From Verrucomicrobiota bacterium (GTDB taxonomy: Bacteria > Verrucomicrobiota > Verrucomicrobiia > Chthoniobacterales > UBA10450): a stretch of 17,634 bases of DNA. Below the pieces are notes generated by a model that was given only the letters and a program-made list of their open reading frames with translations, did no database searches and was not told the origin of the DNA. Each line of letters starts with the position of its first letter. Within the stretch, counting starts at the first letter, position 1. Where the stretch lies: positions 1-17,634 of the forward strand of contig QHQV01000248.1 in the NCBI GenBank assembly GCA_003219945.1, in the 5' to 3' direction. The translations under genes and the position numbers were made by a program. Positions 6,618 through 14,665 of the stretch are shown here, piece after piece.

Positions 6618-6709
6618 GTCATTCTGAGCGAAGTCGAGGAATCCCGTTGCGTTAGCTTAAGGTCCTCCCGCGGGATCCCGCGACTCCACTTCGCTTCGCT
6701 CAGGATGAC
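6618..6709. repeat. 92-base palindromic repeat, copy 1
   Basis: This element begins GTCATTCTGAGCGAAGTC and ends with the near complement (…GCTTCGCTCAGGATGAC). It contains an inner GCGGGATCCCGC palindrome. A second copy of the same length is at 11348-11439. It lies 8 bases after kdsD and may act as a terminator for it. It looks like an extragenic palindromic repeat of a dispersed family. Confidence 0.85.
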
Positions 6710-11347: not shown

Positions 11348-11439
11348 GTCATTCCGAGCGAAGTCGAGGAATCCCGGTGCGAAACCTAAAGCTAGTTCCG
11401 CGGGGTCCCGCGACTTCGCTGCGCTTCGCTCGGGATGAC
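11348..11439. repeat. 92-base palindromic repeat, copy 2
   Basis: This second copy of the element at 6618-6709 has the same length and the same ends (GTCATTCCGAGCGAAGTC … CTTCGCTCGGGATGAC). The arms are conserved while the middle differs. It lies between the argS stop codon and the treY start, and could terminate argS or form part of the treY leader. Confidence 0.85.
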
Positions 11440-11445
11440 GCGTCA

Positions 11446-13209
11446 TCACATCCGCTCAGGCACTTTGATGCCGAGAAGATCCAGCCCGCGCTGCAAGACT
11501 CGCGCGGTGAGATCAGACAACATCAGACGCGAGCTGCGGGCTGGTTCCTCTGATTTCAACACGGGGCAAGCTTCGTAAAAAGCATGGAAGCTGTTTGCTA
11601 GCTCGAACAGATAATTTGCAAGGATGTTCGGGCGAAAACCGTTTAGCACTTGCGGAACGATCTCCGCGAACTGACAAAGTCGTTTCGCAAGATTGATCTC
11701 CGTAGGCTCAGTCAACGTGAATGCTGTAGCCACTGGCCTGTGGCCGGCCTCTTCATATTGTGCGGCTCCAACGCCCCACAGGGGCGTGGCCACAGCAATC
11801 GCGCCTGCTTTACGAAAGATCGAGCGAATTCGCACATATGCATTCTGCAAATACGGCGCAGTGTTCCCGTGCAGCGAAAGCATCTTATACCACGAAAAAA
11901 TATAATCTGTCGTCCGATACTGCGAGAGATCAGCGTATTTCACGGCACCGATACCGATCTTCTCTGCGATGTCGTTCTTCTCATCCTCGCTCAAGTCCGG
12001 ATTTTTTTCGTCGATGATTTTTCGGGCGCGCCTGCACGCTTCCTCGAGAAGCTCACGCAAAGGAACATTCTCACCCGAACGCGTCTTCATTAGTTTGCGA
12101 TCTTCGCCGAGCACACTTCCAAATGTGACGTGACGCACATCAACCGTGTAACCCTCGCGCTGCGCGACCGCGAAAATCTGTTTGAAATGCAATGTCTGCG
12201 GCGCGCCAACGACGTACCAGATCGTATCGGCTTTCAACTCGTTGACGCGATAATCGATCGTGGCGAGATCGGTCGTAGCGTAATTGAATCCGCCGTCGCG
12301 TTTGCGAATAATCAGGGGCTTGTCCGCCAAGTCGGGATCATCCCGGAAGAACACGACCACGGCGCCTTCGCTGATCTCCGCTATCCCGGCCTTGAGCAGG
12401 CGATCCACCACGTTAGGCAGCTGATCATTGTAAAAACTTTCGCCGCATTGCAGGTCGTAACGGATGTCGAGTAATTTGTAAACGCGCTCGAAATCCTGCA
12501 TCGAAAACGCGACGCATTCGTTCCAAATATCTGTGTTTTCCTTGTCGCCGGCCTGCAATTTCACAAGTTCCTGGCGGCACGCTTCGCGAACTTCCGTGTC
12601 CCTGCTCGCTCGCTCGTTTGTTTCCTTGTAAACGCGTACGATCTCGGCCAGCGGGTTGCGCTGCAGTGCCTGTCGATCCAGAAGATTTTTCCACCCCCAA
12701 ATAACCATTCCGAACTGTGTTCCCCAGTCGCCGACGTGATTATCTCGAATGACTTCGTGCCCAAGAAATTTGGCGACGCGCGCCAGTGCGTCGCCTAGCA
12801 CCGTGCTACGGATGTGACCAACATGCATTGGCTTCGCCACATTGGGGGATCCAAAATCAATGACGATGCGTCGTGGTGATTCTGTTTCAGCGACGCCGAG
12901 ACGGTCATCTTGCAACACCTCGAGCGTCTGTTTTTCGACGGCGGCCTGACGCAATGTGAAGTTGATAAAGCCGGTGCCAGCGACAGCTGGCCGTCCGCAG
13001 AATTCATCCACATCCAGATGAGCCACGATTTTCTCTGCCAGCGCACGCGGATTTTCGCCGCGCTGTTTCCCAAACACTAGAGCAACGTTGCTCTGGTAAT
13101 CGCCAAACCGCGGATCGGTCGCCTGCGTCAATTCGCCGACTTCAGGCAAGCCGGCGCGCGCCAAAGCGTCGGAAAGCTTTTTTGCGAGAAGTGATTGGAA
13201 GGTGTCCAT
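11446..13209 (-). CDS. argS: Arginyl-tRNA synthetase
   Basis: The 587-residue product charges tRNA-Arg with arginine. It shows the ArgS N-terminal domain (about 1-100), the class I catalytic core with SPNVAKPMHVGHIRSTVLGD (HIGH motif as HVGH, 129-132), DNHVGDWGTQFGM, the KMSKS-equivalent KLMKTRSGE, and the anticodon-binding domain that ends LLGIKVPERM. The frame opens further upstream to 13272, but those residues come from a palindromic repeat. ATG 13209 gives the usual start MDTFQSLLAKKL. At residues about 472-496, after SIFRKAG, there is an extra segment (ATPLWGVGAAQYEEAGHRP) encoded by a palindromic repeat in frame; E. coli ArgS is clearly shorter at this place. No key residue is lost, so the enzyme should be functional. 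Confidence 0.95.
   Translation of the reverse strand: MDTFQSLLAKKLSDALARAGLPEVGELTQATDPRFGDYQSNVALVFGKQRGENPRALAEKIVAHLDVDEFCGRPAVAGTGFINFTLRQAAVEKQTLEVLQDDRLGVAETESPRRIVIDFGSPNVAKPMHVGHIRSTVLGDALARVAKFLGHEVIRDNHVGDWGTQFGMVIWGWKNLLDRQALQRNPLAEIVRVYKETNERASRDTEVREACRQELVKLQAGDKENTDIWNECVAFSMQDFERVYKLLDIRYDLQCGESFYNDQLPNVVDRLLKAGIAEISEGAVVVFFRDDPDLADKPLIIRKRDGGFNYATTDLATIDYRVNELKADTIWYVVGAPQTLHFKQIFAVAQREGYTVDVRHVTFGSVLGEDRKLMKTRSGENVPLRELLEEACRRARKIIDEKNPDLSEDEKNDIAEKIGIGAVKYADLSQYRTTDYIFSWYKMLSLHGNTAPYLQNAYVRIRSIFRKAGAIAVATPLWGVGAAQYEEAGHRPVATAFTLTEPTEINLAKRLCQFAEIVPQVLNGFRPNILANYLFELANSFHAFYEACPVLKSEEPARSSRLMLSDLTARVLQRGLDLLGIKVPERM
11723..11796. repeat. Palindromic element inside argS coding region
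   Basis: On the plus strand the element starts GCTGTAGCCAC and ends GTGGCCACAGC, arms that pair in 10 of 11 positions. Between them are two hairpins, GGCC-TGT-GGCC and CGCCCC-ACA-GGGGCG. The three-arm plan and CTGTAGC end resemble the intergenic elements at 13225-13290 and 14563-14662. It is translated in frame as about 25 residues of ArgS. Confidence 0.75.
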
Positions 13210-13224
13210 CGGTACTGCCGGAAC

Positions 13225-13290
13225 TGTAGCGGCCCTGTCTGAGCGCCGCATCGACAGTTGCCCGGCGGTCAAAGACCGCCGCTAAAGCTA
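13225..13290. repeat. Palindromic element between ptsN-like gene and argS
   Basis: The element starts CTGTAGCGGCC and ends with GCTAAAGCTA. Inner stems are GGCGGTC-AAA-GACCGCC and GCGGC/GCCGC. Its right end supplies the TAG stop codon of the EIIA gene, and its left end lies 15 bases before the argS start. It falsely extends the argS reading frame upstream. Confidence 0.7.
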
Positions 13291-13746
13291 CGAACGTTCG
13301 CGAAAGATCGCCAAAATTTCGTCAGCGGATTTCGCACTGGCAAGACTCTCACGCACAGAACGGTCATTCAGAAATTTTGCGATGGAAGCCAGCGTGCGCA
13401 GGTGGGTTTGGAATTGATTTTTCGGTACGATAAAGAGAACGACAAATTTTACCGGTGCGTTATCCAGCGCGTCGAACTCGATTCCTCTCCTCGACGTTCC
13501 GAACGCTGCCACCACTTCATCGAGCCGATCGGATGAACAATGCGGTATGGCAATTCCGAATCCGATTCCGGTGCTCATGGTTTCCTCGCGTTGCCTCAGC
13601 GCTGCCAGAATGGAGTCGCGATCCGCTGGTTTAATTTTGCCGAGGCTAACAAGCAGATCGATCAGTTCAACAATAGCCGACCAACGCTCCGTTGCTTTCA
13701 TCTCGGGAATGATTTGCTCGGCAGAAAGTAAATTGGCGAGGGACAT
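13288..13746 (-). CDS. PTS EIIA domain protein (PtsN-like)
   Basis: The 152-residue product is a single EIIA domain of the fructose/mannitol/nitrogen type (PF00359). The phosphorylated histidine is H69 in the motif GIGFGIAIPHC (60-70), and the rest (PVKFVVLFIVPKNQ, HLRTLASIAKFL) follows the family. Stand-alone EIIA domains of this kind usually receive phosphate from HPr or EI-Ntr/NPr and regulate other proteins rather than move sugar. No EIIB, EIIC or HPr gene is near, which fits a regulatory role, but that is inference. The ATG start at 13746 has no strong Shine-Dalgarno. It lies between the broken GT2 gene (82 bases upstream) and argS, all on the minus strand. Confidence 0.88.
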   Translation of the reverse strand: MSLANLLSAEQIIPEMKATERWSAIVELIDLLVSLGKIKPADRDSILAALRQREETMSTGIGFGIAIPHCSSDRLDEVVAAFGTSRRGIEFDALDNAPVKFVVLFIVPKNQFQTHLRTLASIAKFLNDRSVRESLASAKSADEILAIFRERS

Positions 13747-13828: not shown

Positions 13829-14505
13829 TTATTCCCGAATCTTGTAATTCAAACGCCGCGAGAGCAGCCAGCGTACACCGAACATGTCGATCGTGGCGCG
13901 CACCGCGCGATTGCCCAGACCGTATTTAGTCTGACCAAAACGGCGGGGCCGATGATTCACCGGGATTTCCACCAGCCGGTATCCTGCGTCTTTGACCAAC
14001 GCAGGAATGAAGCGATGCATTCCCTTGAAAGGAAACAGCGCGCTGACGCACTCGCGTCGCATCGCCTTGAGCGTGCAACCAGTGTCGCGCACGCCGTCTT
14101 TCGTGTACCGGCTGCGAACGGCGTTCGCAATCTGCGCTGGGCGCGATAACCGCAAACGAGATCAGCGCCGTATGAAATTTCACCGACCAATTTTGGAATG
14201 TCGGCGGGATCGTTTTGCAAATCGCCGTCGATCAGAACGAGGATTGCCCCGCGCGCGGCCTGCAGCCCGGCATAAATCGCGGCGCTTTGTCCGGCATTTC
14301 TTTCGAAACGGATCATTCGCAGATTCGGCGCGGCTTCAATGCGCTGCGCGGTGCGATCGGCTGATCCGTCATCGACAAAAATAAGTTCGTGATCAATGCC
14401 CCTGAGCGCCGCTCTGAGCTCAGCTTGCAGGATCGGAATATTCTCTTCCTCGTTGTACACAGGAACGATGACCGAAACTACGGGAGAATCTGTCGTATGC
14501 GTCAT
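13829..14505 (-). pseudogene. Polyprenol-phosphate glycosyltransferase (GT2), frameshifted
   Basis: Two overlapping frames together give one DPM1/ArnC-like GT2 protein. The first frame (from ATG 14505) encodes SVIVPVYNEEEN (11-22), FVDDGSADRT (43-52), RNAGQSAAIYAG and the metal-binding LIDGDLQNDP (91-100), up to LVCGYRAQ near 14137. The next frame then continues IANAVRSRYTKDGVRDTGC, FKGMHRFIPAL and PVNHRPRRFGQTKYG to the stop at 13829. Compared with relatives, about ten residues are missing at the join, so this looks like a deletion of 3n+2 bases rather than a one-base reading error. Such enzymes load a sugar onto polyprenyl phosphate at the membrane. The partner GT39 and PAP2 genes upstream are intact. 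A TTG start at 14532 is possible but less likely. An assembly error cannot be excluded. Confidence 0.82.
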
Positions 14506-14562
14506 AACACTGCCGAGTTCTCTTGGACTCAAATCGCTCTGAATTTAAGCTTTTCCTTGAAC

Positions 14563-14662
14563 GCTGTAGCCGCGTCTCTATGAGATGCGTGGCGTTTGAT
14601 TTGTAGAAGAATTAGGCCTGCGCTTCGCACAGCGAAGAGTCTATAGGATGCGTCTAAGCTAC
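14563..14662. repeat. Palindromic element between GT39 and GT2 genes
   Basis: The element begins GCTGTAGCCGCGTCTC and ends ATGCGTCTAAGCTAC, with GTAGC/GCTAC ends. Inner hairpins are GCGTCTC-TAT-GAGATGC and CTTCGC-ACA-GCGAAG. It ends three bases from the stop codon of the GT39 gene and fills most of the 160-base gap. It shares its CTGTAGC end with the elements at 11723 and 13225. Confidence 0.65.
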
Positions 14663-14665
14663 TTC

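Follow-up and report, generated by a model that had tools for sequence, protein, structure and literature searches.

How a long DNA palindrome comes to lie within the reading frame of an essential gene is the question posed by argS in the stretch of DNA analyzed here, a window of 17,634 nucleotides from a bacterium that the original prediction, made from the letters alone, took for a verrucomicrobium. The nearest named relatives are indeed MAGs of Verrucomicrobia (Chthoniobacterales). The evidence assembled below makes it probable that the palindromic segment of argS is a REPIN that belongs to a family moved by RAYT, the REP-associated tyrosine transposase, and that the protein loop it fills has been occupied repeatedly and independently by different elements. 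All the sequences involved come from draft or metagenome assemblies.

A palindrome translated within ArgS

The argS gene occupies positions 11446..13209 on the minus strand (ATG at 13209, stop codon at 11446-11448) and encodes an arginyl-tRNA synthetase of 587 amino acids, as indicated by the match to TIGR00456 (521 bits, with a cut-off of 262), the matches to PF00750, PF05746 and PF03485, and the similarity of the structural model to Escherichia coli ArgRS (5yym; TM 0.87 in Foldseek). The segment in question, at 11723..11796, reads GCTGTGGCCAC...GTGGCTACAGC on the coding strand (11796-11723) and is translated as ArgS residues 472-496 (AVATPLWGVGAAQYEEAGHRPVATA). The original prediction of a 74-base palindrome in the argS frame was correct in its coordinates and in its description of the arms, the inner hairpins and the frame: the outer arms pair at 11 of 11 positions, with one G-U pair, two hairpins lie between them, and the element, ~24.7 codons in length, is contained wholly within the ORF. 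The 84-nt stretch that holds the palindrome folds at -44.2 kcal/mol (z -4.70, with none of the 200 shuffled sequences equally stable), compared with a z of -3.15 for the plus strand of the same stretch. The expected ~25 extra residues agree with the encoded length, but compared with L015, whose protein is 88% identical and which is the closest relative lacking an insert in the loop, ArgS has gained only 19 codons net, some five ancestral residues (PKIDK type) having been lost.

The segment consists of two REPs inverted into a long hairpin, the arrangement that is found in REPINs. The half at 11723..11747 on the plus strand (GCTGTAGCCACTGGCCTGTGGCCGG) has an intact GTAG tag and is nearly identical to a REP that lies beside the RAYT gene of L261, whereas in the half at 11771..11796 on the minus strand (GCTGTGGCCACGCCCCTGTGGGGCGT) the tag has changed to GTGG on the coding strand, L012, L016 and L018 having GTAG at this place. 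In the AlphaFold model of the window ArgS (alignment of 45 rows; mean pLDDT 89.9, pTM 0.90), pLDDT falls below 50 solely at residues 471-494, which are flanked by confident helices (451-468 and 502-512), and the insert is accordingly predicted to be a disordered loop, in line with the surface placement that the original prediction expected from structure modeling. Along with the fold and the empty loops of relatives described below, this low-confidence stretch is what marks the segment as a REPIN-like, in-frame doublet of GTAG REPs.

The explanation that we prefer is that the 74-nt segment would be a non-autonomous mobile element made of two inverted, GTAG-tagged REP hairpins, that its family would be mobilized by RAYT, and that the REPIN would have inserted where the DALR anticodon-binding domain of ArgS begins, in a surface loop that tolerates extra residues. 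In an essential gene such as argS, insertions would survive only if they contain no stop codon and preserve the frame, so that a DNA palindrome would now be read as a disordered peptide. The same loop would have been taken repeatedly and independently in the genus by various elements, at times over an older one.

The palindrome could also be an accidental feature of an ordinary lineage-specific loop that is under selection at the protein level, an origin with which the intact frame and the retention of the insert over some species splits (L012/L014 and L022/L023) are compatible. This alternative is extremely improbable given the stability of the fold, the predicted disorder of the segment, the presence of the same DNA elsewhere in its own and in sister genomes, and the occurrence of a like element in another frame (L056) and of the element peptide CSHGPVAR...GRGYS in unrelated proteins.

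The element family and its candidate transposase

In the window's own genome, which is 72% complete, the 74-nt query yields nine further BLAST matches at E <= 10, of which six reach E <= 0.05. All but one are confined to a single half of the element (a pair of these eight matches being the halves of a single place, C75); the exception, C22, extends over both halves with 73% identity. A query of the V type, the insert type to which the window copy belongs, gives six matches in this genome, argS included. The family in this genome is small or decayed. Other copies thus exist, as the original prediction anticipated, but in this genome the copies are few and mostly half-elements, and sister genomes hold more. 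The V-type query, taken from L012, has matches in 32 of the 35 genomes of the genus at E <= 0.01, with a maximum of 39 in G027, and queries for two other insert types, X and W, match 35 and 27 of the 35 genomes, respectively, at the same threshold, with some places counted on both strands in all three cases. The W family that is matched in these 27 genomes is a double hairpin, CGTGGCATCGGCATCCTGCCGAT..ATTGGCTGGAAGCCAATGCCACG (L222-L236), without the GTAG tag.

The Y1_Tnp domain is encoded in 33 of the 35 genomes of the genus, and RAYTs that score above the NCBIfam cut-off are encoded in L261, L262, L263, L264, L187 and L189. The RAYT of L261, from a sister species (NF047646, 94.5 bits against a cut-off of 80), has on one side a REP, GTAGCCACCGGCCTGTGGCCGG, that is one change away from the window half at 11723-11747, and on the other side a REP copy with one further change. 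The window's own genome encodes two RAYT-like proteins beside other GTAG REPs (L044 and L043, at 39.9 and 33.6 bits, below the cut-off of 80); the L044 gene lies between REPIN arrays, and 25 of 26 positions are the same in the right REP of these arrays and in that of the type A insert in ArgS. The L261 neighborhood points to RAYT as the likely mover of the argS insert, whereas the low scores of the two proteins of the own genome count against it. Two strong PF01797 matches, L163 and L174, were considered as RAYTs and rejected as IS200-type genes, the RAYTs being found among the weaker matches; by our count, a GTAGC hairpin lies within ~400 nt of five strong PF01797 loci, a weak signal that is given no weight here.

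The C-T dinucleotide is described as the site that is cut by TnpA_REP in the consulted parts of PMC8266576. In our set of loci, many of which were chosen for holding the element, C-T precedes GTAGC on the 5' side in 131 of the 297 occurrences with a hairpin and in 106 of the 1239 without one. An enrichment of hairpins at GTAGC across 105 loci (147/551, compared with a median of 3.7% for permuted pentamers) was dropped from consideration, many of these loci having been chosen because they contain the element. In 220 kb of G007 sampled irrespective of the element (17 contig stretches), 12 of the 279 GTAGC occurrences (4.3%) form hairpins, which ranks tenth among 60 permuted pentamers (median 3.1%); GTAGCC hairpins number 10, compared with 3-20 for four control hexamers, and inverted GTAGC pairs number 1 versus 0. 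REPs are not abundant in this sample. A candidate target motif for insertion, AAGATCGACAAG, which unoccupied loops of both ArgS and a histidine kinase discussed below contain, was rejected as a common word: in 220 kb of G007, AAGATCGACAA occurs 17 times and AAGATCGA 73 times, whereas permuted 8-mers average 5.8 occurrences. No other motif peculiar to the sites of insertion was found.

Occupation of one ArgS loop across the genus

ArgS was matched in 33 of the 35 genomes of the genus, one match ending before the loop, so that the loop is readable in 32. It is empty in 15 of these, including L015, the nearest relative of the window, with the FRKAGESAPKIDKLIL type of sequence (GESAPKIDK-LIL in close relatives, L015 among them), and is occupied in 17, by five types of inserts; the gap in related ArgS that an insertion implies is therefore there. 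The V type (VATPLWGV...GHRPVAT) fills 10 of the 17 occupied loops, two of them (L022 and L023) with decayed copies. L025 carries V with a different junction, L013 carries A, L038 carries X, L031 carries G, and three loops (L020, L028 and L040) hold W, a different double hairpin that is tagged with GTGGCAT. Outside the 35 genomes, the loop of L056 contains a V-like doublet read in another frame (CSHGPMAG...GRGY), that of L067 a single REP, those of L061 and L066 the A insert and that of L062 the G insert. In the more distant L074, L128 and L129, the peptides of the ArgS loop (SPQPSP.., IRNPKSEIRNPK and SSQPSALS) resemble, by eye, translations of other genomic repeats. A further, hairpin-like stretch of ~30 nt, of the CCGCCTTCGC...GGCGAGGCAAGC type, is nested within the second V REP in the ArgS of L014 and in the histidine kinases of L288 and L302.

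When ArgS was scanned along its length with L015 as the reference (101 sequences, 98 with >85% coverage), no inserts of 6 or more residues were detected elsewhere after the start of the protein in the rows from the genus; rows from distant ArgS have inserts at reference residues 56-83, 185, 240-248 and 327-337. One spot of an essential enzyme thus appears to have been repeatedly rewritten by mobile DNA across related species.

In a tree computed from the DNA of 42 argS genes, with the loop codons left out, the nine loop states require at least 18 changes, a count that is blind to gain versus loss. Shuffled labels require 20.3 on average (equally low in 14 of 200), so the clustering of the states exceeds that of random labels by little. 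The V state alone requires 7 changes, 6 of these forced by well-supported branches (9.1 with shuffled labels), and the AU test rejects a single clade for V (p 9e-7), W (1e-52) and A (4e-70). Fully supported sisters differ in their loops (L018 with V and L033 empty; L020 with W and L026 empty; L031 with G and L034 empty), and so do the members of a fully supported trio that consists of the window (V), L013 (A) and L015 (empty).

Such a patchwork could arise from a few old insertions that subsequently spread between species by homologous recombination over short tracts, with the V, W, A and empty alleles exchanged by gene conversion and the palindromes maintained by conversion with genomic REPs. 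Several features fit this scenario. Distant carriers often have common junctions, namely V after GESA, W in L020, L028 and L040, and A in L013 and L061/L066; the residues that follow the insert are LTL in most V alleles, as opposed to LIL or LVL in most empty ones. Allele exchange, or a preferred target, would account for common junctions and a common LTL better than chance hits would. Alleles A and G are, moreover, intermixed among the very close relatives L061, L062 and L066. The X insert of L038 and the W insert of L028 each adjoin what we interpret as a scar left by the right end of an earlier V-type REP, so that one element seems to have been replaced by another, which suggests overwriting. 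However, L025 and L018 have junctions of their own and L056 has its own frame, and several element types require separate entries in any case. Furthermore, within 40 codons on each side of the loop, pairs of V carriers are no more alike than they are in the rest of the gene (near minus rest similarity of -0.025, sd 0.055, 45 pairs, compared with 0.003 for 150 pairs of V and empty genes), although this comparison would miss old or very short exchange tracts. On balance, independent insertion is favored over short-tract allele exchange, which we regard as unlikely to be the main explanation.

Insertion is usually accompanied by the loss of ~5-8 codons; such a loss would not be expected from transposition alone and counts against the mobile-element explanation. 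A casual, unsystematic look for target-site duplications noticed none.

The hairpin blocks of L012 and L016 are identical at 51 of 51 positions, while the identity at synonymous codons of argS is 0.65; conversely, the copies in L022 and L023 are decayed although still in frame, and that in L017 is partly decayed. This combination suggests a recent origin of the pristine copies and a dispensable hairpin; the insert itself would be neutral for the enzyme. The same conservation relative to synonymous sites, together with the very stable fold, could be taken to mean that the hairpin functions as RNA, causing a translation pause or regulating argS, and has been retained for that role. With no insert in 15 of the 32 genomes, decay of the hairpin in L022, L023 and, in part, L017, substitution by other palindromes, and the presence of the element in unrelated genes as well, a function of this kind is very improbable.

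In-frame elements in other proteins and in known systems

In-frame copies of the elements are not restricted to ArgS, a point that, like the repeated use of one ArgS loop by different elements, goes beyond the original prediction. In a PAS-HisKA histidine kinase, an exact GTAGCC is present in 16 of the 30 loop sequences and 6 of the 30 look empty (Pfam domains assigned on L192); empty orthologs were read for ArgS and this kinase only. The element is also found in frame at one site of a BadF/SIS MurQ-like protein in five genomes (L141, L143, L274, L284 and L317; Pfam on L143), in a FAD_binding_3 oxidoreductase in four (L135, L137, L267 and L268; Pfam on L267), in a TPR membrane protein (L266), in a PMT_2 protein (L194) and in a PurL-like protein (L337, with AIRS and FGAR-AT linker domains). 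In two loci (L322:1345-3009 and L332:1305-2930), TrpC and TrpF form a single frame in which a GTAG REPIN is the linker between IGPS and PRAI, a fusion that was possibly created by the mobile palindrome.

Among the matches listed, at least 20 of the 46 full-length V-type places (query 1-3 to 59-63, selected by eye) lie in frame inside recognized genes, 14 of the 15 best-scoring places among them; the query comes from an ArgS copy, which biases the count towards that form. The figure of 20 leaves out unrecognized frames over the element of 200-303 amino acids (G022:C104, G018:C366 and G022:C250) and G033:C146 (626), the metG-like L321 and nuoD-like L336, whose frames open at the element and thus ahead of the probable start codon, and the C-terminal ends in L318 and L320. 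In the latter two loci (L318:569-2386 and L320:2141-3739), a NuoM-like Proton_antipo_M protein has a C-terminal extension of REPIN-encoded residues (CSHGA...GRGYN).

A length of 60 nt, equal to 20 codons, is frequent among the best-preserved full-length copies, and three of the six frames of the L012 copy are free of stops. A broader and tentative possibility, which we hold with considerable doubt, is that the REPINs of these soil Verrucomicrobiota have become a protein-coding mobile element that is mainly intragenic, that repeatedly lands in, overwrites and diversifies the same few loops, and that can provide linkers such as that of TrpC-TrpF. If true, the RAYT system would be an engine of loop diversification rather than an extragenic passenger. 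The ArgS loop provides natural replicates, with one loop of an essential enzyme occupied by different mobile-looking elements in related species and with empty sisters available for comparison, which makes the conversion of selfish DNA into protein, the choice of targets by REPINs and the pace at which the peptide is lost or put to use amenable to testing. A practical caution is that, for these soil bacteria, a recent mobile-element peptide is included in alignments and annotations of ArgS.

The closest known counterpart is the REPIN and RAYT (TnpA_REP) system as described in the consulted parts of Bertels and Rainey 2011 (PMC3116915) and PMC8266576: the two systems have in common GTAG at the foot of the hairpin, an inverted doublet with a spacer, dispersed copies, C-T before GTAG and, in the sister genome, nearly the same REP flanking the RAYT. 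The REPIN populations described in these parts are extragenic, whereas the window copy, which is inside argS and thus departs from the mostly extragenic location of REPINs, and many close ones are intragenic and in frame. Intragenic GTAG and CGTC REPs have been reported (Di Nocera et al. 2013, PMC3733652, in the consulted parts, as are the following points) as REP dimers inside ORFs that encode 20-30 residues; GTAG REPs were at their maximum in the verrucomicrobium Opitutus terrae, some intragenic REPs were in tRNA synthetases, and two Xanthomonas recB genes were hit at about the same site. The window element is of this class, a dimer within an ORF with ~24.7 codons. Intragenic GTAG REPs, including those in Verrucomicrobia and in tRNA synthetases, are accordingly already known; the consulted parts of PMC3733652 contain neither a case of several element types successively filling one loop throughout a genus nor a REPIN as the linker of a fused enzyme, and it is the serial colonization of particular protein loops, the same ones throughout one genus, that is new.

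The original prediction likened the segment to the Rickettsia palindromic elements, palindromic selfish DNA of ~150 bp that is found in frame in many genes (Ogata 2000, 2002, as covered in the consulted part of the review PMC10969869). The analogy is apt in kind and does not extend to the family, which the GTAG tag, the doublet of inverted REPs and the transposase associated with them mark as REPIN-like: compared by description, the window element is 74 nt rather than ~150 bp, belongs to another phylum and carries a GTAG tag that goes unmentioned in that part of PMC10969869. The open-licence literature yielded no paper on palindromic in-frame insertion in an arginyl-tRNA synthetase or on palindromic elements in Udaeobacter, and the consulted part of PMC3048395 has nothing on such insertions.

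The window contains further palindromes. The two intergenic elements that the original prediction compared with the argS insert are both of the GTAG...CTAC kind. The first, GTAGC...GCTAC at 13225..13291, lies between argS and ptsN (fold of 13221-13296 with z -3.33, 1 of 200 shuffles as stable); the second, GTAGCC...GCTAC at 14563..14662, has the same layout of the ends and is longer and less regular (fold of 14561-14665 with z -2.14, matched in stability by 6 of 200 shuffles). The minus-strand GTAG of the first palindrome contains the TAG, at 13288-13290, with which ptsN (ORF 13288-13746) terminates; supply of stop codons to genes by GTAG REPs in general is described in the consulted parts of PMC3733652. 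A different long palindromic repeat, GTCATTC..GAGCGAAG, is present at 6618-6709 and at 11348-11439, the latter copy between treY and argS; the two are 84% identical and fold with z of -5.4 and -4.4, respectively. Finally, a glycosyltransferase gene at 13829-14532 (DPM1-like, named by eye) is covered by two overlapping frames, 13829-14155 and 13957-14532, which appears to reflect a frameshift or an assembly error.
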